Of a stretch of 41,871 bases of DNA, positions 8,146-35,560 are shown one piece after another. Numbering within the stretch: the first letter of the stretch is position 1; each line of letters starts with the position of its first letter. The notes below the pieces were generated by a model. That model made no database searches. It was not told where the DNA came from and saw nothing but the letters and a program-made list of their open reading frames with translations. Source of the DNA: a virus. The stretch spans positions 1-41,871 of IMG/VR virus record IMGVR_UViG_3300012208_000007; one strand, given 5' to 3'. The position numbers and the translations under genes were made by a program.

Positions 8146-8154
8146 TGTTATACT
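8146..8154 (+). promoter_or_regulatory. Extended -10 promoter for a plus-strand small RNA
   Basis: TGTTATACT is an extended -10 box; no convincing -35 is present. Start would be near 8161, at the beginning of the five-base repeats. The overlapping bases read TATAAC on the minus strand and could also serve the gene starting at 8129, so direction is not settled by the box alone. Confidence 0.45.
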
Positions 8155-8272
8155 GTGCTTGGCTAGGCATGACTAGACGGGCCGGGGCCAGGCAAGTCCC
8201 GCCGGGGCATGGAATGGTGAGAACGAGGCGTGGCTGGCAAGGCCGAGGGAGCAAATTTGCTCCCTCTTTTTT
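8155..8272 (+). ncRNA. Candidate small RNA made of five-base GGC repeats
   Basis: Between two minus-strand genes, the plus strand has an extended -10 box, then about 17 consecutive five-base units of the form NNGGC or NNGAC (8156-8240), then a perfect hairpin and six T. The unit is TTGGC, TAGGC, ATGAC, TAGAC and so on, with C at every fifth base in most units. The terminator points plus, opposite to the flanking genes, so a transcript of about 110 bases is predicted. A 35-codon frame from 8170 has no ribosome site and is not favoured. Confidence 0.45.
8245..8272 (+). terminator. Rho-independent terminator of the repeat RNA
   Basis: GAGGGAGCAAA pairs with TTTGCTCCCTC (8245-8266) and is followed by TTTTTT (8267-8272). 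There is no T run on the other strand. Confidence 0.8.
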
Positions 8273-8283
8273 CTGAATTCGCA

Positions 8284-8538
8284 TCAGACAACGTCCGCGG
8301 TGCCTTCGTCGTAAATACCTGGTTTGTTATTTCCTCCGTAAATGTAAGCCGTATAATTCGTAACGGCCAAGGCCGCAGCTTGATAGGCAGCTTTGTTCGT
8401 TTCGCTGGTTTCGATGCCAGCTTGGTAAGTAGCCAACGTCGATGCCGCCGTCGCCTGCAAAACAGCCAATTGCGTCAGTTGCGCACTTGTCGGAACGTGA
8501 GGCGCATCCGCGCCTTGCGGATTTCCTGCTGATGGCAT
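8284..8538 (-). CDS. Small Ala/Thr-rich protein next to the capsid gene
   Basis: 84 residues from the ATG at 8538, Ala/Thr/Gln-rich and helical (ATAASTLATYQAGIE). It directly follows the major capsid gene, which suggests a structural or assembly role. No family was recognised. Confidence 0.55.
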   Translation of the reverse strand: MPSAGNPQGADAPHVPTSAQLTQLAVLQATAASTLATYQAGIETSETNKAAYQAAALAVTNYTAYIYGGNNKPGIYDEGTADVV

Positions 8539-11070: not shown

Positions 11071-12288
11071 TTATGCCACGCGCGCCTTGACTTCGGCAAG
11101 CATTTCGCGTGTCTCTTCGTCCACCATGGCCACGAGAGTCTGCGTCAGCGCGGCAACGTTGCTGGCCAGCATCTCGGGCAACTGCGAATTTTCGTCCAGT
11201 TCGTATTCCTGCTCGCAGGCAACCGAAAACACCAGGCAAGCCAGTTCCTCGAGCGAACAGGCAAGCCGTGAAACTTCCCACATGCCCTTCGCCAGCTTCC
11301 CCATATCGGCATCGAGCGCGGCCAGGCGCTGGCTGGCAATCTTTTCCAGGTTCTGATTCAGATAAACCCGCGCGGACTTGCGCATCAGGGTGCGAATCGC
11401 GGCAATCTTCGTTTCCTCGGTAGTTACATCGATCCCAAATTTCTTCGCGGCAGCAACGATCTTGCCGCGTACTTTGGTCTTTTCCTTTTCCGGCGCGGCA
11501 ACCATCTTCGCAATGCTCCGGCGGACATAGCCGGCTTCATGCACCGGATAGTCCCAAGTCTCCGTCTTTTCGAGGTCGGGAACATGCGCAAAAGCCGTGC
11601 TCTCTAAATCCTTTCCGCCAACTTGCTTCGTCTTCTTGGCCGGTGCCGGTGCCGGTGCCGCTGCCGGTGCCGCTGCCGCCGGTATGACCGCTGTCGTAAT
11701 CGGCGTCGCCTTGGCCGCTTTCAACAGGCTCACTTCCTGCTCGAGCGCCGCGATCCGCGGATCGGATCCAGGAACCTCCGTCTTGAGGAACTTGCGCATT
11801 TCAATGGATCCGTCTGTCTTTATGTACGCAAAGTGGGCAGTTGGGAGGCAAGGGTTGTCGACCAAAGAAATTTCTGACGGATTCGCAACGTACCGCATGC
11901 AGTTTTTGAAAACTGGATCAGGAACTTGGTTGCCAACTTTGCGGCCGCCTTGAGAAAAACCGCTATAAACTCGCTCTTCAACTTTTTTCCAGGCGTTGTC
12001 ATCGACGACCTTGAAGGTCATCTCGATCTCTTTGTCCGCGTCGTCGAAATTGAATCCAATGCCCTTGCCCACCGCAGAAAGCTGATGCATTTCTCGCAAC
12101 GGCATGCAATTCTCGCCGTCGGTGGCCTTGGTCATTTCCGAAATCAGCGCCTGATAGTAAGGCTTGGATTTTTCATAATCGCAAACCTCAAAATCCTTGT
12201 CGGGGACTTCGCCGGTGACGACGCCCGACACTTCGCGCTTCACGGCATTCACTTTTGTAAAAGGGATGAACTTGGAGAAGTCAGACAT
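11071..12288 (-). CDS. Prohead serine protease (XkdF-like) fused to scaffold-like C-terminus
   Basis: 405 residues. The N-terminal domain (1-150) has PLREMHQ with H68, a VYSGFSQGG segment with S109/S112 and an EISLVDNPC strand, the order found in XkdF-type prohead proteases. Residues about 200-225 are an Ala/Pro linker, and the remainder is helical and may be a scaffold or delta domain. Family role: cleaves scaffold and capsid precursors during head maturation. The ATG lies 5 bases after the conserved element 12294-12327. Confidence 0.75.
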   Translation of the reverse strand: MSDFSKFIPFTKVNAVKREVSGVVTGEVPDKDFEVCDYEKSKPYYQALISEMTKATDGENCMPLREMHQLSAVGKGIGFNFDDADKEIEMTFKVVDDNAWKKVEERVYSGFSQGGRKVGNQVPDPVFKNCMRYVANPSEISLVDNPCLPTAHFAYIKTDGSIEMRKFLKTEVPGSDPRIAALEQEVSLLKAAKATPITTAVIPAAAAPAAAPAPAPAKKTKQVGGKDLESTAFAHVPDLEKTETWDYPVHEAGYVRRSIAKMVAAPEKEKTKVRGKIVAAAKKFGIDVTTEETKIAAIRTLMRKSARVYLNQNLEKIASQRLAALDADMGKLAKGMWEVSRLACSLEELACLVFSVACEQEYELDENSQLPEMLASNVAALTQTLVAMVDEETREMLAEVKARVA

Positions 12289-12391: not shown

Positions 12392-12420
12392 TTGTAACTT
12401 AGAGCCTAACATGCTAGATT
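12392..12420 (+). promoter_or_regulatory. Sigma-70-like promoter of the pentamer-repeat cassette
   Basis: TTGTAA (12392-12397), 17 bases, TAGATT (12415-12420), with TG one base before the -10 (extended). It faces plus, against the flanking operon, and would start transcription at the first repeat unit. Confidence 0.55.
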
Positions 12421-12572
12421 GATTGCGGCGGGGAGTGGCGTGAGACGGCGCGGAGAGACACGGCCCGAACGAGGCAAGAACGAGGCATGGCAGGCGTGGA
12501 TAGCAACGGCGGGAATTGGCTCGACCAGGCGGGACGGGATAAGGCAAGGAGTGGCAGGCGCGGAACAATACG
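12421..12572 (+). repeat. Five-base-periodic G-rich repeat (about 30 units)
   Basis: GG or GA recurs every five bases across about 150 bases with single-base phase shifts near 12473, 12484 and 12493. Units are degenerate (GGCGG, GGAGT, GGCGT, GAGAC, GGCGC). The array lies between the promoter and the GTG of the small gene, so it would be a transcribed leader. The same kind of array occurs at 8156-8240. Confidence 0.65.
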
Positions 12573-12818
12573 GTGAGCGAGCAACAATTACGGAAAATTC
12601 TGGCTTCGACGCTGGAACTAGTGAGAGAGCAACAGGCGACACTGTTCGAGCAAGGCTGGGAAATCGCCGCACTGCGCGACGCTCTGCGAGAAGTCGAGCC
12701 TAAAGCGGCCGAGTTTTTGCTCGTCGCGCTGGTAAAATATCGAAGCCGAGACCTCGACGCATACGACGCATTCCAAAAACGATTTGCCGAGTTAATTGCT
12801 CGATTGACAGATGTTTGA
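12573..12818 (+). CDS. Small coiled-coil protein on the opposite strand within the head operon
   Basis: 81 residues from a GTG, MSEQQLRKILASTLELVREQQ..., helical throughout with heptad-like spacing. It is transcribed against the head genes and preceded by its own promoter and repeat leader, which suggests an independently acquired cassette. There is no Shine-Dalgarno, so initiation may depend on the repeat leader. No family was recognised. Confidence 0.6.
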   Translation: MSEQQLRKILASTLELVREQQATLFEQGWEIAALRDALREVEPKAAEFLLVALVKYRSRDLDAYDAFQKRFAELIARLTDV

Positions 12819-12879: not shown

Positions 12880-13752
12880 CTAAGAAGGCCCGACCTGTGT
12901 CACTAAAATCACGCACCGGCATCGAGGGTGCGCGCCCGGAAAAAGGTCGCCGGAAGGAAACGGCTGGCCCAATTCCACTTCCACGCCATCGTTCTCATCG
13001 CAAATTCCGCAGACATTTTCATCCTCAGAAGTGGTCCAGCGGATTTTCTTGACGAGCCCGCTGTCGCGCCAAACGATGAAGTTGCCGCCTGCTTGCGCGT
13101 TAGAAATTTCCGTTCGCGAAATCAATTCCGCGCGCGCCTCGCTGAAAATGCCATTGCCTTCCGCTTCATCGGCAAGCGCCTCCTGGATGGCGGTTTTGAT
13201 TTCTTCAAACGGCGAATCTTCCGTAAAAGAATCGGCCACAATCTCGCGGATCCGGTCCCGGGTGGTGTTCGATATGGCCCATTTAGCGTCCGGGTTCTGA
13301 ACGAGATTCCCTTCGACGTCGCGTTTCATGCCAACCATTTCGGCGGCACGCTCGCGAGCATAATTTTCGGCGGTGGTATTGGCCGAGGAAATCAAGCCAG
13401 CAGTCGAGAATTCAATCTGCAGAGCTCCCTGACCGATCCCGGAGAGCATCGCGGATTCGAGTGCCGGCTGGATCTCGAGCGGCAAGCTTTCCCATTCCTT
13501 TTCTAGCGCGGCAATCAGAGCATCGGCGAAGGCTTGGACATCGTCATCAAGAGACTTTCGGAGCAGCTTCGCGTAGCTTTTCGAAGCGTGGGGCCCCGCG
13601 ATAGAGTTGGCCGAACTGAAAGCGATGCGTTCGCGCTCGGCCGCGGAATCGCCCTGATGCTTTTTCCATTCGCTGTTGAACACGTGCAACCATTGACGGC
13701 GGCGCGATTTTGGAACGTAGGCAGGTACCTGCGACTCGCTAGAGTAAGGCAC
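12880..13752 (-). CDS. Phage head morphogenesis protein (SPP1 gp7/Mu F-like)
   Basis: 290 residues from a GTG at 13752 overlapping the portal stop. The N-terminus (SESQVPAYVP...FSSANSIAGP) resembles the ChaB-like segment seen at the front of such proteins. The C-terminus holds the diagnostic minor head motif: RTEISNAQAGG, WTTSEDENVCGICDENDG, then HPRCRCVI, a Cys/His set. Family role: minor capsid protein that associates with the portal. It ends in TAG. Confidence 0.82.
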   Translation of the reverse strand: MPYSSESQVPAYVPKSRRRQWLHVFNSEWKKHQGDSAAERERIAFSSANSIAGPHASKSYAKLLRKSLDDDVQAFADALIAALEKEWESLPLEIQPALESAMLSGIGQGALQIEFSTAGLISSANTTAENYARERAAEMVGMKRDVEGNLVQNPDAKWAISNTTRDRIREIVADSFTEDSPFEEIKTAIQEALADEAEGNGIFSEARAELISRTEISNAQAGGNFIVWRDSGLVKKIRWTTSEDENVCGICDENDGVEVELGQPFPSGDLFPGAHPRCRCVILVTQVGPS

Positions 13753-16048
13753 GGCGGACCCTTTCGCTCGGCAACATCAGTTTTTCGAGATCCTGAACGG
13801 TGTAATCGACTCCCGAAAAAACCAAACTCTTCAACGTAAATACTTCCTCTTCAAGCGGGTTGCCGGCATCTACATATTTCTGCGCATCGGCTTTTGGATC
13901 CAAGTACGCAACGCAAACATGCGGGCGATATTCCGGATGTGTTTCGGTATGCGGGAGCACTTTCAAATCTTCGTGCAGCTTCCGGAGTTTTCCGCTTTCA
14001 ACAAGCATCACCAGAGGTATGCCGTCTTCATTTTCCGGAAAGGCCTCGAGCGGCCCGATCGTGACGTCCAGCTCGCCAGTCCCGCGCGTGATTGCTTCGA
14101 TTTGATCCTTGGTCACGGATTCATGAAAGCCCCATAAAACCGTGCAGTGCGGCTGCATGTCGCGACCCTTTTGTGCAAAATCTTCTTCATCGACTGGAAT
14201 CGCCAGCACGCGCTGGGCATCATCGGCCGAAAGATTGAATTGGACGCTGCCGTATTTGCGTTTACTTAGAACATTGCCAAGAATTTTCTGGAATCTGCCG
14301 GAAACCGCCGCGAGCTGGGAGCGGAAAACTTTCCCGACGGCATGCTGGATGGCATGGACGGCCTGTTCGGATTCAGCTGTCAGTACGCCGGCTTCAATAC
14401 GCGATCCGAGCCGTTTTTCGAATAGCGCTTCCTGAAGTTTTTTTTTACCGTCCAGGCTTTCTTTGCCGTTATCGACCCCGGTGTTTCTTCCCGTCGACCG
14501 GCCACCGCCGGCTTCCTGGCTGACGGGTGTGCCGCCGCGTGTGGCATTGTGCCCGCCGGCGCCGTTCGTCGCGGGCTTCGGAGGCGGTGCCGTGGGCGTT
14601 ACCGGATGTGGACGAATAACTCCCTTTTCATCGACCATCAACCCCGCGGTTGCCGGAGCAACGCCCACTGGAATGAATCCTGTCCCACTGATCACTCCGA
14701 GCTGGTCGGCTTCCGGCTCCGGCCGCAATTCCTCGCCAACACGCTTCCGGGCTTCATTCGGGGTCAGGATGGCCTTCCCGACCAGCATCGTGAGCGCGGC
14801 AGCATTCTTCAGTGGATCCGGCTCGGCATACGGGTTGATCGCGATTTCATAATCGACCATCCCCATCTTCCGCTGGATGATGAAATCGATGATGCCTTTG
14901 ACCCAGAGCACCCATGGCAGCGTTCCTTCGACTTCGGCGGCGTCTGAAGACGATTTGCCTTCCGTGCGGATCATCTTCATCAGGCGTTGCGGACTTGTGC
15001 CGTAACCGAAAGCGATTTCGCGGATGTGTTTCTCGTCATAGAGCCCGGCAAGGAGTGGCTCTTTAGGAAAAAGAATTTGATCGACTTTGCCAGGCTCATT
15101 GAATCCCTGCACGAGCCGCCATTGGTTGCGCTTGGCGAGGTTCCCGGCCAGCTGCGAGTTCATCCATTCCATCGCTTCTTCGATGCGGTCTGGCGACGTT
15201 CCACGTGGAACCACTTGGACAACGCCGGGGACGCTGCCCTCGGTGTAATACGCAAGGACGAATTGCAATCTCTTGATGCCGATTTGAATTTCAGGGGCAA
15301 GCTGCTCAGTGGCCGAATTTCCGTAGAGCTGAGAAGCCATCGTATTCCGTGGCACAATACTTCTAGGTTTATATACTAACTGGTCAGTAGTGAGGTCCAC
15401 CCAAGGCATGCCCCAATAATTTTGGGCATAGGCAGGATCTGGCGGCATCGGCGTGAAACCATTGTTGTCAATATACCTTGTTATCATTTCGCCGCGAATG
15501 ACTGCCAGTTCCGCAATCTCGCCTTTGTATGTCTTACGCATCAAAACCGAGGGTGCGTCGATCACGAGAAGATCATCGAGTAGCGGACGCAGCCATTCCT
15601 GCCAGTTGTGTTCGCGGTCGGGATACTCAAAGAACCGGTTCAGCTTAATCAGATCGTCTTTATTGTCTTTGGCGCGCTGCGCTACGTCCTTGCGAGACTC
15701 CATTGGGTTGGCACGCAACTGGATTTCCCAAGGAGCGCGCGTGACCGTATCTTTCACGTTCTCGATGCAGATCCGCGCCAAAGGATAAGTCGCGAGCGCT
15801 TTCAAGTCCGCGGCGGAAAATTCCGCGTCGGCGCGGGGGGTAAAAATCATGTTCTGCCCGGACCAGGTTTGGAATTGACGCGGCTCGCTACCTGGCCCTC
15901 CCAAAGGCTTGATTGGCTGGAATGGTGACCCCCAATTGTCAGGATCGATCCCGCGGATGGTATCGGCAGGTTTTTGATAAAGCGACCGGAGTCCTTGCAC
16001 CAATTGTGCAACAGGACGAATCACGAGACCGGTGCGACCATTTGCCAT
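13739..16048 (-). CDS. Portal protein with C-terminal 2H phosphoesterase-like domain
   Basis: 769 residues, well above the usual 400-550 for portals. Residues about 1-480 have portal features (FEYPDREHNWQEWLRPLLDD, FKDPLK-like segments, NEARKRVGEELRPEPEADQ near 440-460). A Pro/Gly linker and a coiled stretch follow. Residues about 610-740 carry PHCTVLWG (H634) and RPHVCVAYL (H710), the paired H-x-S/T-x-like motifs of 2H phosphoesterases; the second has Cys in place of Ser/Thr. Portals form the DNA entry ring; the enzymatic tail could act on 2'-5' or cyclic phosphates (inference). It ends in TAG. Confidence 0.85.
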   Translation of the reverse strand: MANGRTGLVIRPVAQLVQGLRSLYQKPADTIRGIDPDNWGSPFQPIKPLGGPGSEPRQFQTWSGQNMIFTPRADAEFSAADLKALATYPLARICIENVKDTVTRAPWEIQLRANPMESRKDVAQRAKDNKDDLIKLNRFFEYPDREHNWQEWLRPLLDDLLVIDAPSVLMRKTYKGEIAELAVIRGEMITRYIDNNGFTPMPPDPAYAQNYWGMPWVDLTTDQLVYKPRSIVPRNTMASQLYGNSATEQLAPEIQIGIKRLQFVLAYYTEGSVPGVVQVVPRGTSPDRIEEAMEWMNSQLAGNLAKRNQWRLVQGFNEPGKVDQILFPKEPLLAGLYDEKHIREIAFGYGTSPQRLMKMIRTEGKSSSDAAEVEGTLPWVLWVKGIIDFIIQRKMGMVDYEIAINPYAEPDPLKNAAALTMLVGKAILTPNEARKRVGEELRPEPEADQLGVISGTGFIPVGVAPATAGLMVDEKGVIRPHPVTPTAPPPKPATNGAGGHNATRGGTPVSQEAGGGRSTGRNTGVDNGKESLDGKKKLQEALFEKRLGSRIEAGVLTAESEQAVHAIQHAVGKVFRSQLAAVSGRFQKILGNVLSKRKYGSVQFNLSADDAQRVLAIPVDEEDFAQKGRDMQPHCTVLWGFHESVTKDQIEAITRGTGELDVTIGPLEAFPENEDGIPLVMLVESGKLRKLHEDLKVLPHTETHPEYRPHVCVAYLDPKADAQKYVDAGNPLEEEVFTLKSLVFSGVDYTVQDLEKLMLPSERVRRALL

Positions 16049-16076
16049 TTAGGGAGCAGTCTATTCCAAATGCAGA

Positions 16077-16439
16077 CTACGTGGAAGACGGAGTTTCCTC
16101 TTCCTGCAGGAAAGCTTGCCGGTCTTCTTTGATTTCAAGGTCGGTCCGCGCCACCGATGGCAATACTTTCGACGGATCGACGGCTTTGGCGATCGGAGAA
16201 TCGAACCAGCGCGCGCCGCATACGGCGCAAGTATGCTGGCAAAGAATTTGGCCGCCGATAACGGGATTTTTCGCAACTGGCCCCGGCTTGGCTTTCAGCA
16301 CGCAGCGCAGATGCCCTTCATGCGCGCCGCAGACCGGGCAGCGGGCATGCGGATCGACCAGCGCCAGAGCTTCGAGCTTCGGAAGCCGCAAAAACCATAT
16401 GAACCGCTTCAAGGCGATGATTAGCCAATAAAAGAGCAT
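16077..16439 (-). CDS. Membrane-anchored zinc-binding protein
   Basis: 120 residues from the ATG at 16439. The N-terminus MLFYWLIIALKRFIWFL is a hydrophobic anchor. CPVCGAHEGHLRC and CQHTCAVCG supply at least six cysteines for zinc. It is first in the head operon, next to the portal. It ends in TAG. Function unknown. Confidence 0.65.
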   Translation of the reverse strand: MLFYWLIIALKRFIWFLRLPKLEALALVDPHARCPVCGAHEGHLRCVLKAKPGPVAKNPVIGGQILCQHTCAVCGARWFDSPIAKAVDPSKVLPSVARTDLEIKEDRQAFLQEEETPSST

Positions 16440-16441
16440 GG

Positions 16442-16732
16442 TCAATTCTCTCTAACGCGATGGCGAGTCAGCCGCTCGCCGTAAAGTTTGTCGGCCCGGT
16501 CTTCGATTGTCTCGCGCGAAGGGAACCAGCGCATAAAATCAGGTCTTGTCTCGACCGAATCCATTATGAATTTCAGGCTCCCGTAATCGCAACTGATGCA
16601 AACAACTTCCGCGTCGCGGCCTTTCAAGATGAAGCCGAACTTAAAGGACCGCGATTCCTCTTTCAATGCCGCAATTTCCTGGTTCCTCGTCAGGACTGGC
16701 GGAGCATTGGAATCCCTTTTCCTGCCAGTCAT
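16442..16732 (-). CDS. Small protein of unknown function
   Basis: 96 residues, MTGRKRDSNAPP..., charged with a central beta stretch (FKFGFILKGRDAEVVCISC). The stop lies just before the ATG of the zinc protein. No family was recognised. Confidence 0.6.
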   Translation of the reverse strand: MTGRKRDSNAPPVLTRNQEIAALKEESRSFKFGFILKGRDAEVVCISCDYGSLKFIMDSVETRPDFMRWFPSRETIEDRADKLYGERLTRHRVREN

Positions 16733-16735
16733 GAT

Positions 16736-17041
16736 TCAATTCTTCCAATTTCCCCAAGGCGCCACTCGCATCAATTCGCGGATGCGCCGTTGCTCTTTAA
16801 GAACCCCGGGAGATGTATGCTTCGGCACGGTAGAGTGTGGCCGCATGATTTTCGCCGCATCATTCTCGGAGATGACGCCAACAACATTCTTTTCGTAGCC
16901 AAAACGACGGTTCCATAATTGTGCGTATTCATTCCACTGATTTGCGGTGCGCCGCCAGGAACGTGGACTGCACACCTGCGCTTTGTAAAGTTCGCCGTTA
17001 CGAAACCAAACGACGATGACCCTCAACACTGAAATTTCCAT
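16736..17041 (-). CDS. Small basic protein of unknown function
   Basis: 101 residues from the ATG at 17041, which overlaps the upstream cysteine-rich gene by 19 bases. It begins MEISVLRVIVVWFRNGELYK and is rich in Arg and Trp. A longer start at 17101 is less likely because of the overlap. No family was recognised. Confidence 0.55.
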   Translation of the reverse strand: MEISVLRVIVVWFRNGELYKAQVCSPRSWRRTANQWNEYAQLWNRRFGYEKNVVGVISENDAAKIMRPHSTVPKHTSPGVLKEQRRIRELMRVAPWGNWKN

Positions 17042-17391
17042 TCGTTCCAGCGCCGCAGAAGTTCTGCTTTTGCCGCTGCTGTCGTAAGCCGGTCGAGACA
17101 ACCCGTCGTCATGCCTTCAAAGCAATAATCCATTTGGTCCCACAATTCACCACCAAAGATTCGCCCATTGCAATAGAAAGCCTCGGCAATCTCCGCGCAA
17201 ATTAAACACGTATCGGCTGCCCACATGTCTCCTTCGAATTTGCCGGTGGCATGCTCGTAACGCTCGCCAATTAAAATTTCCTTGCTGCACTCGCTGCATT
17301 TGTGGACCTTCTTGGCCTTACGGATTTCAACATGGAAGAATTCGCAGCAACCCTCCGGCTCCGCTCCGATACAAACTCCGCAATCGCTCAT
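17023..17391 (-). CDS. Cysteine-rich zinc-binding phage protein
   Basis: 122 residues with a CGVC pair, HKCSECSKEI and TCLICAE, then GELWDQMD. The order of cysteine pairs around 'KAKKVHKCSECSKEILIGERYE' type text matches a widespread uncharacterised phage family. Probably a multi-zinc protein. The ATG overlaps the upstream stop (ATGA). Confidence 0.72.
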   Translation of the reverse strand: MSDCGVCIGAEPEGCCEFFHVEIRKAKKVHKCSECSKEILIGERYEHATGKFEGDMWAADTCLICAEIAEAFYCNGRIFGGELWDQMDYCFEGMTTGCLDRLTTAAAKAELLRRWNEWKFQC

Positions 17392-17594
17392 CGCAGTTCC
17401 TCGTCTTGTCTCATGTCAAAAAGAGCATCAATCATTTGCTTGGCCTTCTCGCGGTCGAGCCCGGGACGGGTCTCGAGCACTGCTTCGAGAATCCCGCCCG
17501 GGCGATTCATTTGAATGAGTGGTCGCATGATATTTATATAATTTCGCCGGCGCTTCCATCGGCGGTTGCTGGTACGGTCAACGCCGAACTTCAT
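17388..17594 (-). CDS. Small helical protein
   Basis: 68 residues from the ATG at 17594, directly after the previous TAA; an internal ATG at 17528 (MRPLIQMNRPGGILE) is an alternative start. The C-terminal half is a charged helix (GLDREKAKQMIDALF). Function unknown. Confidence 0.55.
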   Translation of the reverse strand: MKFGVDRTSNRRWKRRRNYINIMRPLIQMNRPGGILEAVLETRPGLDREKAKQMIDALFDMRQDEELR

Positions 17595-18131
17595 TTATGT
17601 GCCTACCTGCTCATCGGTCCCTTTCCAGACGAATTCATCAAGCGGGCGATGCGTCCGGCAAGAACAGCAAAACGTTCCGCCGTAAAACGTCGGACATCTC
17701 GCAATAGTTTCCGCCAGGGCTTCGCCCATGGTCGTATCCGTCCCGCAAGTGGCATGCGTGTACGTGCGGCGCACCGGACGCACAAACCCTTTGGCGCGTT
17801 CTTCGGCGCTCAATACGATGTAGCCCTTCTGCATTCCGGTCGATGGATTGATCTCGCGATGATCCGGCGTTACCGGGGATCCGTCGGTCAGGACGCGCGC
17901 CGTGACGTCGACTGGTGGAAGTTCCGTTTCGCGTTCTTTCCAGTATTTTTGCTGGGCTTCGCGTTCCGCTTCCTCGGCTTTCCGGATCAGGAGATAGCCA
18001 AGGTTCCGCGCCTGCAACGGCGAGAAAACGATATGTCCCACGCCGTTTCCGTCCGGCTGTAAATCGGGATGGTTCACGATCACTTCCCCGTCCAGGATGC
18101 CGACTTCGAGGAACCCGCTTTTATCATTCAT
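17595..18131 (-). CDS. Phage protein with LSAEERAKGFVRPVRRTY motif
   Basis: 178 residues from the ATG at 18131. The C-terminal half (LSAEERAKGFVRPVRR, TTMGEALAETIARCPTFYGG, FCCSCRTHRPLDEFVWKGTDE) matches a family common in phage genomes, always uncharacterised, with a Cys pair that likely binds zinc. The N-terminal half contains a charged helix. It leads the small-gene run below. Confidence 0.7.
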   Translation of the reverse strand: MNDKSGFLEVGILDGEVIVNHPDLQPDGNGVGHIVFSPLQARNLGYLLIRKAEEAEREAQQKYWKERETELPPVDVTARVLTDGSPVTPDHREINPSTGMQKGYIVLSAEERAKGFVRPVRRTYTHATCGTDTTMGEALAETIARCPTFYGGTFCCSCRTHRPLDEFVWKGTDEQVGT

Positions 18132-18229
18132 CGCCTTGCCTCTCAAATTTCGGGATCAGCTTGATATAAGCAGAGGCCGGCTCCCTCTTGCTTCGTACTC
18201 AACCGGCCCACGCTTCTCCTAGTGGTCAA

Positions 18230-18640
18230 CTATCCCACCGAAGTCCAATTGAAAATTCCTTGCATGCCTTTCTGCGGATAAGGCTTGTCGAATTTCGAAA
18301 TGACGGTCATGAACCAGCCGTAGCGTCCGGGCGTGAAGTCTCCATAACGGCCTTCTGGATATAGCATGATATTTTTGTAAAATTCCGGCGTGAATTGTTC
18401 GCACTTATCGAGGCGCACGATACCGAGCACCGCGCCGCGCGGGATGCTATCGGCAGAATATCCCCAGCAAACGCACATGCACCGGTCGACATGTTTCGTT
18501 GCATGAATCGCCAGTTCCTTGCCAATAAGCCATGTCGGCGCGGGCCAGTGCCGCGTTTCGATCTGTTTTCGACCGTCGATCACGAGTGAACACCACGGCT
18601 GCCACAAAGAAATGCATTTGAGAGTGGTTGCTAATGTCAT
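18230..18640 (-). CDS. ASCH-domain protein
   Basis: 136 residues from the ATG at 18640, overlapping the upstream stop (ATGA). CISLWQPWCSLVIDGRKQIETRHW near the N-terminus and LGIVRLD in the centre are the ASCH (PUA-like beta-barrel) signature. Family knowledge: ASCH proteins bind or modify RNA or nucleosides. It stops with TAG. Confidence 0.72.
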   Translation of the reverse strand: MTLATTLKCISLWQPWCSLVIDGRKQIETRHWPAPTWLIGKELAIHATKHVDRCMCVCWGYSADSIPRGAVLGIVRLDKCEQFTPEFYKNIMLYPEGRYGDFTPGRYGWFMTVISKFDKPYPQKGMQGIFNWTSVG

Positions 18641-19026
18641 CGTGCCCGCCAATGAATTATCTGGCCGCTAAATGGCAGCCGGGTTTTCGGCGTAGTCCAG
18701 AACTTCATCATCTCCGACAAGCTCTTAAAACCGTCGCGGCGCGCAAAGTGCTCGCATTCAGAATCATCGAGGTCGACGCCATCGATTGATATCGCCATGC
18801 TCTTGAGGCTCCCGAGCGCCCGGATGACGGGCCAGATATTGATTTGCTCGACTTTTACGCATTCGACTTCGGCAAGCAGCTTCGCTTCTTTTGTTCTTAA
18901 GCCGGTGTAGAGATAAAGCGTGTCGCCAGGCCTGTCCGGATACTTCCGCGCCGCGCGGATGGTATGCTTCTTCCTCCCGGCGAGGATCGCCCCTTCGAAG
19001 ATCGGCTTGAAATTGTATAAGCCCAT
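18637..19026 (-). CDS. ASCH/PUA-like protein
   Basis: 129 residues from the ATG at 19026, one base after the previous stop. NFKPIFEGAILAGRKKHTIRAARK followed by PGDTLYLYTGLRTK is the ASCH pattern of an N-terminal 'F...I..G.K..T.R' and a later 'G..l.l..g' strand. It forms an overlapping pair with the second ASCH gene. Possible RNA or modified-nucleotide binder. Confidence 0.62.
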   Translation of the reverse strand: MGLYNFKPIFEGAILAGRKKHTIRAARKYPDRPGDTLYLYTGLRTKEAKLLAEVECVKVEQINIWPVIRALGSLKSMAISIDGVDLDDSECEHFARRDGFKSLSEMMKFWTTPKTRLPFSGQIIHWRAR

Positions 19027-22231: not shown

Positions 22232-23585
22232 CGAAAAAACTCCCTTCTGCATTAGCCACAGCATGAACTTCAAAACGCAATTTCATGATATTGAAAGTGG
22301 CTTTGATCGGCCCGGTTTTGCCGTCGCGGTTTTTGAGCACCCACAAGGTGGCGTCTTTTTCTTCGCCATCCAGGCGTTCTTCCCATTTCCGTTCGGCGAG
22401 GATAATCAGGCTGGCGTGTTTGATTTTCGCTCCGCTTCCATACAGCCGGGAGAGATTCGGCGGCCGCAGGTTCTTGTCTTCCTGGCTATTGCCGTATTCC
22501 TTGCGCAGCTGGCTGATGAGAATTACCGCGCAATTCAGCTCCATGCCCATGCTTTTACTGGCACGCACCAGGCGGCGAAGCTGTTCGTTTTCATCTTTCC
22601 CGGGAGCATCGATCAATTCATCGTAATCGAGGATCAGCAGATGCAAGCCGTCCCGCGATTTCAGCGACCGGGCCACACGGCGGATTTTGCCGATCTCCAG
22701 TTCGCCATCGAGGATCCGGCATTTCTTGCATTGATGGGAAGCGGCTTCGACGATGGCCTGAAAATTTTTTTCACTCAATTGATCTTCGCGGCGCATCAGG
22801 GAAGGATGGACGCCGGCGGCGGCGGCGAGTTCCCGCCGCAAGAGATGCCGCGCCCACATCTCCCCGGAACAAAACAGAGAGATAAATCCGCGCCGGCAGG
22901 CCTCGATCCGGGTTTGCTGGGCCAGTAAGGTCTTTCCCGAGCCGGTCTCGGCCGTAAGGATCACGAGTTCCCCGGGACGGAATCCTCCGGTCATGTCATC
23001 GAGGGCCGTGATGCCGGTAAAGATATTGGCGCGCGGCTCGGTCTGCATCAATTCTTCGATCGTTTGTTTGGCGGCGGCATGATAGGTCACACCATGCTCG
23101 TCGATTTCTTCGTACTTGCGCACGGCTTCTGAAATTCTTCCGATCGTGGTGTCCAGGATTTCATCGATGGCATCTTCATCGCGGTCGATCGCGCGTTTGG
23201 CGGTGTCCAGGATCTTCAAAGCATTGCGGCAGAGGCTCATGCGGCGCAATTCGCGCGCGGTACCTTCCAGATTGTCGGCGTGCCTGGCGTCTTCCCGGAG
23301 GGCGCCAAGGAACAAAAGCAGATTCTGGCTTTCGAGATCGGAGAGTTTTTCGATTTCGGTATACAAATTGATGAGGTTGATTTCTTGATTCGAAGCGCGC
23401 AATGCCTGGAGCATGGCGAAGATCTTTTTATGGTCGGGATGGAAAAATTCGTCTTCTCCGAGCAGGTCCAGCAAAGTTTCAGATTGCGGATGACGTCCGA
23501 GGATGGCGCCAAGAAGGATGCGTTCGAGCAGGGCATCCTGGCGGGTGCGTTCGACTGGTTCCGGACTGGTGGTGATTTTGCTCAT
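22206..23585 (-). CDS. dnaB: DnaB-like replicative DNA helicase
   Basis: 459 residues, near the normal DnaB length. The N-terminal DnaB domain begins around LLGAILGRHPQSETLLDLL. The RecA-like core has Walker A AETGSGKT (212-219), LLILDYDEL with D320 (Walker B) and ISQLRKEYG, then RLYGSGAKIKHASLIILAER and WVLKNRDGKTG near the C-terminus, all in DnaB order. It would unwind DNA at the phage fork. It overlaps the HNH gene and follows the replication protein by one base. Confidence 0.9.
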   Translation of the reverse strand: MSKITTSPEPVERTRQDALLERILLGAILGRHPQSETLLDLLGEDEFFHPDHKKIFAMLQALRASNQEINLINLYTEIEKLSDLESQNLLLFLGALREDARHADNLEGTARELRRMSLCRNALKILDTAKRAIDRDEDAIDEILDTTIGRISEAVRKYEEIDEHGVTYHAAAKQTIEELMQTEPRANIFTGITALDDMTGGFRPGELVILTAETGSGKTLLAQQTRIEACRRGFISLFCSGEMWARHLLRRELAAAAGVHPSLMRREDQLSEKNFQAIVEAASHQCKKCRILDGELEIGKIRRVARSLKSRDGLHLLILDYDELIDAPGKDENEQLRRLVRASKSMGMELNCAVILISQLRKEYGNSQEDKNLRPPNLSRLYGSGAKIKHASLIILAERKWEERLDGEEKDATLWVLKNRDGKTGPIKATFNIMKLRFEVHAVANAEGSFFDGTGMAQS

Positions 23586-25907: not shown

Positions 25908-26195
25908 TAGGGCGCATCGCATCCCAGAAGTTATGAGTCGCATCGCACCGCATCGCAACCGATCGCATCGCCTTGCGCCTCTGTGCTCCATGAGTGCGCA
26001 TTGTAGGGCGCATCGCAATGGAGCCGCATGGCCAGCTGGGGCGCATGCTGGCCGCACTGGTAGGGGAGTCGCGCAAAATAAAATGCGCAATAGAAGTGCG
26101 TTAGGGCGCATTTAGGTTTTAGGAGTAGGTTAGGGAGTAGGTTATTGGCTGGGAGAGTCGCATTCTGGTAGTCTGGTAGGAACCGAGAGTCTGTA
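25908..26195. repeat. Five-base-periodic GCATC-type repeat
   Basis: Between 25937 and 25970 the unit CATCG/CACCG repeats in register. Weaker five-base phasing continues to about 26190 with GCGCA and TAGG units. No gene is supported in it. It differs in unit from the two GGC arrays. Confidence 0.45.
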
Positions 26196-33643: not shown

Positions 33644-34165
33644 ATGACCTAGATCGAATCTTACGTTTACGTTTTTGTCCGCACCAACCTTCCGACCGAA
33701 CATCAGTTTGTGCAAGCCCTTCATTCCGTCTATCATCTGGCACAACTCCGCCGCGAAGAAGGCACGCCCAACATCGTCCTGATTGGGTTGCCGGATGCGG
33801 CGACGCTCCGGCGCGCGGAACGGAAGCTCATTGCCGCGAAAATCCCGCATTTTGTTTGGGAAGAGCCGGACTTTAATTTTGGATTGACCGCCATTGCTAC
33901 GGCGCCGGTACGCGGCGACCAGCGGAAAGCACTGGCCAATTACCGAGTTTACAACCATGCGTCGGTAGCTCAGATAGGCCGTATAGAGCAGTCGGTTCTA
34001 ACCGGAAGGCCGCAGGTGCAAAACCTGCCCGACGCTCCAGATTTCAACACACCTGTCGTACAAGTGGCTAGTACACTGGACTCTAAATCCGGAAATGATC
34101 GTTCGACGCGATCCAGGTGTGCCAAGTTCGATGGGGCAGGTTCGGAGGCATCCGAGCGGGTTTGA
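33644..34165 (+). CDS. Peptidyl-tRNA hydrolase 2-like protein with in-frame amber at codon 3
   Basis: The reading frame starts ATG ACC TAG ATC GAA TCT, then YVYVFVRTNLPTEHQFVQALHSV, IVLIGLPDAATLRRAERKL and HFVWEEPDFNFGLTAIATAPV. This order (VRxDL, QAxHA, strand, helix, EPDxxxxxTAIA) is that of PTH2-like phage proteins, which release peptides from drop-off peptidyl-tRNA. No ATG, GTG or TTG lies between the TAG (33650-33652) and 33710, which would remove the first strand. The domain should end near 33955, but the frame runs on without stop through two tRNA genes to 34165. Only readthrough or an ATC start would yield the full domain. Confidence 0.5.
33959..34039 (+). tRNA. tRNA with CTA anticodon (amber), atypical
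   Basis: Seven-base acceptor GCGTCGG/CCGACGC pairs perfectly; discriminator T and encoded CCA follow. D stem GCTC/GAGC encloses a long 14-base loop. The anticodon arm has a CGG/CCG core and a six-base loop TTCTAA, placing CTA after U33. The T stem GCAGG/CCTGC is perfect, but its loop reads TGCAAAA. The long D loop and short anticodon loop make it a divergent or decaying tRNA. Confidence 0.6.
34049..34124 (+). tRNA. tRNA with CTA anticodon (amber suppressor), class I
   Basis: Acceptor ACACCTG/CAGGTGT, discriminator G, encoded CCA. D stem GTAC/GTAC with a 9-base loop containing GG. Anticodon stem CTGGA/TCCGG with one wobble, loop CTCTAAA: U33, anticodon CTA, A37. T stem GATCG/CGATC with loop TTCGACG. 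Every arm is canonical, so this is a convincing UAG-reading tRNA. The charged amino acid cannot be read from the sequence. Confidence 0.85.
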
Positions 34166-34184
34166 GTACCAACTGCCCCCGCCA
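34133..34184 (+). other. tRNA-like remnant without anticodon arm
   Basis: GGGGCAG pairs with CTGCCCC across 52 bases. Inside are a D-arm-like TCGG/CCGA hairpin with AGGCAT loop and a GGTTTGAGTACC segment. A CGCCA tail follows. Too short for a tRNA; probably a deleted fourth tRNA or a processing hairpin between two tRNA genes. Confidence 0.3.
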
Positions 34185-34190
34185 AAAGTT

Positions 34191-34290
34191 CCGGGCGTAG
34201 CTCAAGGGTAGAGCAATCGGTCCCTAAAACCGACAGAGCAATCGATTACTAATCGATTGGTTGCGGGTTCAAGTCCCGTCGCCCGGTCCA
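34191..34290 (+). tRNA. tRNA with CTA anticodon (amber suppressor), class II
   Basis: Acceptor CCGGGCG/CGCCCGG, discriminator T, encoded CCA. D stem GCTC/GAGC with loop AAGGGTA. Anticodon stem TCGGT/ACCGA with loop CCCTAAA, so anticodon CTA with C at 33 instead of U. A long variable arm has a 9-base stem CAATCGATT/AATCGATTG. T stem GCGGG/CCCGT with loop TTCAAGT. The long arm places it with Ser/Leu/Tyr-type tRNAs. Confidence 0.8.
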
Positions 34291-35280: not shown

Positions 35281-35555
35281 TCTGCCTCATCGAGCCGGAT
35301 GGCGCGCCTGCTATCGAGTGGGAAATGGTCTATGGGGATTTCCGGGTCGGGAGTCGCGGCCAAGTCCGCGCGGAGCCCGCGGAATTTCAATTCGGCGAGC
35401 ACGCTGTCTCTCAGCCAGCGCCATTGTGGTTGTGACATGACAGGGCTAAAAATCGTTAGCCAGGATAAATAACTATCAGGGAGCAGACGTATCCTGGTGC
35501 CTTTATGCTTTCCGAAGGGGATCACTGCCCTGCCGTGCCTGCCGTGGCGTGCCAT
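35277..35555 (-). CDS. DUF3820-like protein
   Basis: 92 residues. IPFGKHKGTRIRLLPDSYLSWL is the DUF3820 signature (PFGKxKG...LPxxYLxW). Family role is unclear; it recurs in phages and near exonuclease genes. The rest is charged helix. Confidence 0.7.
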   Translation of the reverse strand: MARHGRHGRAVIPFGKHKGTRIRLLPDSYLSWLTIFSPVMSQPQWRWLRDSVLAELKFRGLRADLAATPDPEIPIDHFPLDSRRAIRLDEAE

Positions 35556-35560
35556 GACGG

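Follow-up and report, generated by a model that had tools for sequence, protein, structure and literature searches.

Scattered pentamer arrays of an uncultivated phage family resemble VIPR guide-RNA genes and mostly match the adjoining gene of related phages

The 41.9-kb stretch of viral DNA analysed here (41,871 nt, hereafter the window) carries a tract of five-base repeats inside its head operon (A1). We propose that this tract represents a pair of VIPR-type guide-RNA genes and that a second locus (A2) represents a third; acting with the protein Vipr, the RNAs would block the neighbouring gene in co-infecting relatives, a reading to which we assign a probability of about 0.7. VIPR, described in 2026 on bioRxiv with phiSUSP1 as the model phage, combines the RAMP protein Vipr with vrRNAs made of GGY/NN pentamers, and recognises DNA with one base skipped between dinucleotides (PMC13142463). 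When the window's arrays are decoded by this rule, i.e. by taking the two variable bases of each pentamer and skipping one target base between successive dinucleotides, all three guides (A1a, A1b and A2) match the neighbouring head gene of related phages.

The A1 cassette lies between a head maturation protease-like gene (11071–12288, minus strand; weak match to PHROG 34096), which it adjoins, and a MuF-like head morphogenesis gene on the opposite flank (12880–13752, minus strand). As an earlier, preliminary description of this DNA had stated, it is oriented opposite to these head genes and opens with a sigma-70-like promoter (12392–12420, plus strand), composed of TTGTAA (12392–12397), a 17-nt spacer and an extended -10 element, TAGATT (12415–12420) preceded by TG. 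This promoter was unranked in a generic sigma-70 scan. The first repeat unit begins 5 nt past it. The repeats, previously taken for one array of about 30 units, are indeed pentamers, but they form two arrays: the main tract (12425–12564) is divided by two AGGC register breaks, and each array ends NNGGC-AGGC. A1a (12425–12495, plus strand) has 13 units and the guide GC GG GT GT AC GC GA AC CC GA AA GA AT, followed by the AGGC break; A1b (12496–12564, plus strand) has 12 units and the guide GT TA AC GG TT TC CA GG GG AA AA GT, and ends in AGGC-GCGGA.

The five-base periodicity is real and withstood the autocorrelation test that had been proposed as a way to refute it. G power at period 5 was 2.31 in the A1 tract, where none of 5000 shuffles exceeded 2.24, and 2.61 in the A2 tract (8146–8255), where the shuffle maximum was 1.94. 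A pentamer log-odds scan gave 75.6 and 46.8 for the A1 and A2 tracts, respectively, with a maximum of 18.4 in 20 simulated windows; since the scan model was trained on both tracts, the shuffles are the fairer test. The repeat consensus in the window, NN-G(95%)-G(57%)-C(61%), is looser than GGY. A third period-5 signal, at 22896, turned out to lie inside helicase coding DNA and was rejected as an array.

At the A2 locus (8146–8272) a 15-unit array (8159–8243, plus strand; guide TT TA AT TA GG GG CA AA CC GG AT AT GA GA GT) follows an extended -10 element, TATACT preceded by TGT (8149–8154, plus strand), and is closed by an intrinsic terminator or 3′ tail, GAGGGAGCAAATTTGCTCCCTC-TTTTTT (8245–8266, plus strand). 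In relatives, the A2 target is the orthologue of the adjoining 84-aa gene (8284–8538, minus strand). The locus also exists in a sister phage (G001; 91.8 kb, major capsid protein 98% identical), where -10 element, terminator and tail are the same and the guide differs. The invariable 3′ tail that marks VIPR RNAs is thus found at A2; the A1 arrays share only AGGC past their last unit, so that it is found at A2 alone. The preliminary description had seen A1 and A2 as instances of one recurrent arrangement. Promoter and array do recur; A2, however, ends in the terminator with no gene behind it, and the recurrent unit is therefore promoter plus array.

The gene that follows A1 is an 81-aa ORF with a GTG start (12573–12818, plus strand), present and opposite to the head genes as reported, although the accompanying claim that it has no ribosome site was too strong, because the GTG has a weak GGA 8 nt upstream. 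The proposal that the repeat RNA of a mobile cassette regulates or binds this supposed coiled-coil protein, which might be encoded by a VIPR accessory gene, seems to us very improbable. It is true that the ORF stands directly behind the array, that it has a mild coding bias (+0.15 bits/codon, compared with 0.19–0.49 in large genes; other frames are negative) and that VIPR loci carry accessory (vap) genes (PMC13142463). Yet there is no such gene at A2 or at any of the sister phage's nine arrays, the ORF itself is missing from the sister phage, no homologue turned up anywhere we searched, and RNAs of this kind are known to partner with the RAMP protein Vipr instead. The array RNA is, moreover, unstructured: folding of the A1 array parts did not surpass that of shuffled sequences (z +1.3 to +1.6). 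We found nothing that links the ORF to the array RNA. Its structure model is all-helical at low confidence (pLDDT 61), and it is the sole ORF of the A1 cassette, with no match to a nuclease family; it could be either an accessory gene or one with no connection to the arrays. A folded leader or riboswitch was ruled out as well, with A1 folding like its shuffles and the stable element of A2 being the terminator; an Rfam search of the window returned three tRNAs only.

The link to VIPR comes from the protein that accompanies such arrays elsewhere. Scanning viral contigs for six consecutive GGCNN units yielded at least 120 stretches, many with several matches, and 78 of 107 array-containing loci encode a single protein family (motif G..PLLMH; C-terminal G.GD.RP...G..GRF), which corresponds to phrog_4652. 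A protein of this type is encoded by phiSUSP1, and the predicted structure of a phrog_4652 member (pLDDT 95.9) resembles Csm3 and further RAMPs of the Cas7 type (Foldseek E 4e-6; Z 11.8 and 3.5 Å over 158 residues against Csm3). Taken together, the pairing with arrays, the phiSUSP1 copy and the RAMP-like predicted fold identify the array-linked protein as Vipr and the tracts as vrRNA-like. The fold recalls the effectors of Class 1 CRISPR systems; there is, however, no CRISPR array, crRNA or cas operon here, and the code is one of gapped pentamers rather than contiguous spacers. The window's arrays share with VIPR their size (13, 12 and 15 units, within the 9–16 units of VIPR pentamer arrays with variable NN), the 1-nt skip falling on the wobble base of the targets, their organisation as individual, phage-encoded RNA genes, and the presence of the Vipr family in larger relatives of the window phage. 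They differ in that the arrays of this phage family are single, scattered and far from any Vipr gene, with looser GGY, and in that most decodable guides match the adjacent gene of related phages, whereas in the main text of the VIPR report vrRNAs flank vipr and target satellites or resident prophages (PMC13142463).

The strongest match is that of the A2 guide, which agrees at 28 of 30 bases with the relatives' neighbouring gene against a maximum of 23 for 120 shuffled guides over 7.15 Mb; the register at its 6-nt units was picked after the results had been seen (28 versus 26 of 30). Among 2.9 million viral contigs, just four contain the exact 26-base core of this target, in every case in the 84-aa gene of relatives. 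The A1b guide reaches 23/24 in a relative (locus L270; shuffle maximum 20) and 22 in many others, and its target is the motif VYTGFS(Q/H)GG of the protease gene adjoining A1. For A1a the match is to a second site in the protease gene, at 22/26, which is not significant globally (null maximum 22) and locally has p=0.003. A guide from the related 165-kb genome G022 scores 27/28 (shuffle maximum 21). In all seven cases computed, the skipped base is the codon wobble position. Other skips in the target search gave nothing at 0 and 2, and only the array itself at 3. No exact targets of the A1a, A1b or sister-phage A2 guides were present in viral contigs, and for several of the sister phage's arrays no target was found.

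Does this matching reach beyond the window? We took 18 guides from five genomes (G000, G001, G006, G022 and G036) and compared the best match within 2 kb of each array with those of 300 unit-shuffled guides. With a skip of 1, 10 of the 18 had p≤0.05, at distances of 57–576 nt, guides from one genome being not fully independent; with skips of 0, 2 and 3 the corresponding numbers were 1, 0 and 0. Among 413 control guides from general GGCNN-array contigs, most of which have a Vipr gene, 17 had p<0.05, i.e. the chance level, so that local matching characterises the scattered arrays rather than vrRNAs at large. The rule is not universal, since the one clear array locus in genomes added later, in G042 (178.9 kb), has no local target; the other scan hits in those genomes mostly resembled artefacts of GC-rich coding DNA. 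Another phage has a single array with a terminator-like hairpin (L104, 9846–9913, plus strand) at a locus without Vipr; a 19/24 match lies 36 nt away from it, which suggests that neighbour matching may extend beyond the present family.

The guides might instead act in cis, each tuning its own neighbour, with the matches in relatives reflecting no more than conserved protein motifs. Several arrays do match their own genome significantly (A1a 21/26, at 12191–12228; A1b 21/24, at 11936–11970; G001:87144 21/26), and the targets are conserved coding motifs. Against this stands A2, whose own site (8306–8349) matches at 19/30 only, compared with 27–28/30 in relatives, because the window protein reads NNKPGIYDEG where relatives have QKPGIIDEG, a codon insertion. 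The G022:59789 guide behaves likewise, with 21/32 in its own genome and 27/32 in G023, a contig of an Acidobacteria MAG. Relatives also scored higher for G022:37019 (20 versus 17 of 26), G001:49253 (21 versus 17 of 24), A1b (23/24) and A1a (22/26), and for G001:18650 they were at 20–21 with 21/28 in the phage itself; in all, a relative beats self for 6 of the 7 guides compared with relatives. A purely cis-acting role is also at odds with the sister phage, where the same array locus has another guide, and we hold it to be unlikely. The comparison points, as a trend from few independent cases, towards relatives as the targets. A1a and A1b, however, fit their own genome nearly as well as relatives, and self-immunity is therefore convincing only for A2 and some of the relatives' arrays. 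An attempt to explain self-escape by substitutions at invariant protease residues (T109S, A26G) was dropped, as these columns are only 63% and 56% conserved over 76 relatives. The G001:18650 guide falls on the PHVTVLWGFH segment of the portal protein. In the window, the portal protein (13739–16048, minus strand) has a C-terminal 2H phosphoesterase domain (Pfam 2_5_RNA_ligase2 and the anti-CBASS Acb1).

The slot that holds A1 is variable. Homology between the sister phage and the window stops at the A1 promoter, and in the sister phage the slot is occupied by an HNH_3 ORF (E 6e-11) that runs in the same direction. Between the MuF and protease genes there are 595 nt in the window and 656 nt, with the HNH gene, in the sister phage; of 97 related loci, about half have a gap shorter than about 105 nt, and the overall range is from none to 28 kb. 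The slot is thus an insertion hot spot with presence/absence variation. The idea of a small mobile cassette fits in so far as A1 is self-contained within a variable slot; its mobility is seen as presence or absence only. The sister phage's nine arrays are scattered singly. One of them lies at the portal end of an insert of about 4 kb that, compared with the window, separates the sister's portal and MuF genes (L225, G001 14754–18737). Arrays in G042 (L321, 47915–48076, plus strand) and in the sister phage (L226, 37391–37460, minus strand) are followed by similar DNA (TATTTTTCCAATTG.ATTCGTC) and have different guides; judged by sequence, they are likely to be a second shared array locus with guide turnover.

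Where Vipr would come from bears on whether the arrays are active. Profile searches, PHROG searches and profile-profile alignment detected no Vipr in the window or the sister phage, while positive controls were found at 99% probability; nor was it detected in G042, despite the array there. In G022 and G036 (125 kb), Vipr is encoded 21–53 kb from the scattered arrays. The window and the sister contig may be fragments; otherwise the arrays may use the Vipr of another element or be remnants. Decay into inactive vrRNA remnants after loss of Vipr would account for these absences, the loose repeat consensus and the guides without targets. It sits poorly with relatives that have scattered arrays and do encode Vipr, and with the conservation of -10 element, tail and terminator between phages. 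The variable bases of A2 still fit relatives at 28/30, and it is its 'fixed' bases that vary, a pattern opposite to neutral decay, which disfavours simple decay; we consider this explanation improbable.

Under the preferred reading, guide RNAs directed at relatives, the vrRNAs would be read from their adjoining promoters, with start sites just before the first repeat; by eye, several sister-phage arrays have a -10-like sequence that stops a few bases short of the first repeat. By computational matching, guide dinucleotides would pair with bases 1 and 2 of successive codons, the wobble base being skipped. In this Acidobacteria-associated phage family the guides are distributed singly, most decodable ones matching the adjoining gene, with the best matches in related phages and usually a worse one in the phage's own copy. 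Vipr, encoded at another place in the genome or supplied by a different element, would bind the expressed RNA and block the gene in a co-infecting relative. Silencing of rival relatives is thus the likely role of the arrays. An array beside its own mismatched copy would keep guide and immunity together in recombination, similarly to free-standing homing endonucleases. In T-even phages these enzymes (T4 SegF and SegG), associated with intronless homing, are intergenic and drive marker exclusion in relatives (PMC2988022). The likeness lies in an intergenic slot near the gene attacked in relatives that lack the element, an own copy that differs, and the HNH_3 endonuclease of the sister phage in A1's slot. 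The difference is that here the specificity part would be a guide RNA, that the cassette has no nuclease, and that the system is known from sequence matching. A bolder and doubtful extension would make the scattered vrRNA genes an RNA-guided equivalent of homing endonucleases: each, tied to an immune allele of its target gene, would silence (or, with a nuclease, convert) that gene in co-infecting relatives, so that guide and immune allele would spread jointly as a small selfish element.

Our findings support the gapped VIPR code using nothing but natural sequences, from uncultivated phages that, as far as the main text of PMC13142463 shows, were not used to derive it. They add a rule absent from that main text, namely that scattered guides adjoin the gene targeted in relatives. 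If the proposal is true, phages use programmable RNAs, tied to immune alleles, as weapons against their close kin, VIPR, a proposed CRISPR forerunner, becomes connected with homing and marker exclusion, and the targets of orphan vrRNAs can be predicted in a simple way.

Some further features were noted along the way. In the sister phage, a gene that by eye resembles adenylosuccinate synthetase (L227, 48076–49203, minus strand; GFGDCGKGS motif) could be PurA- or PurZ-like, and its antisense strand is matched by the neighbouring guide; PurZ is linked to 2-aminoadenine DNA. The window has three clustered tRNA genes (33959–34287, plus strand), a run of GCATC/GCACC pentamers of different consensus in a non-coding stretch (25935–25975), and about six GGC-type pentamers (35521–35558, minus strand) that score 18.6, at the null maximum, and are possibly an array remnant.
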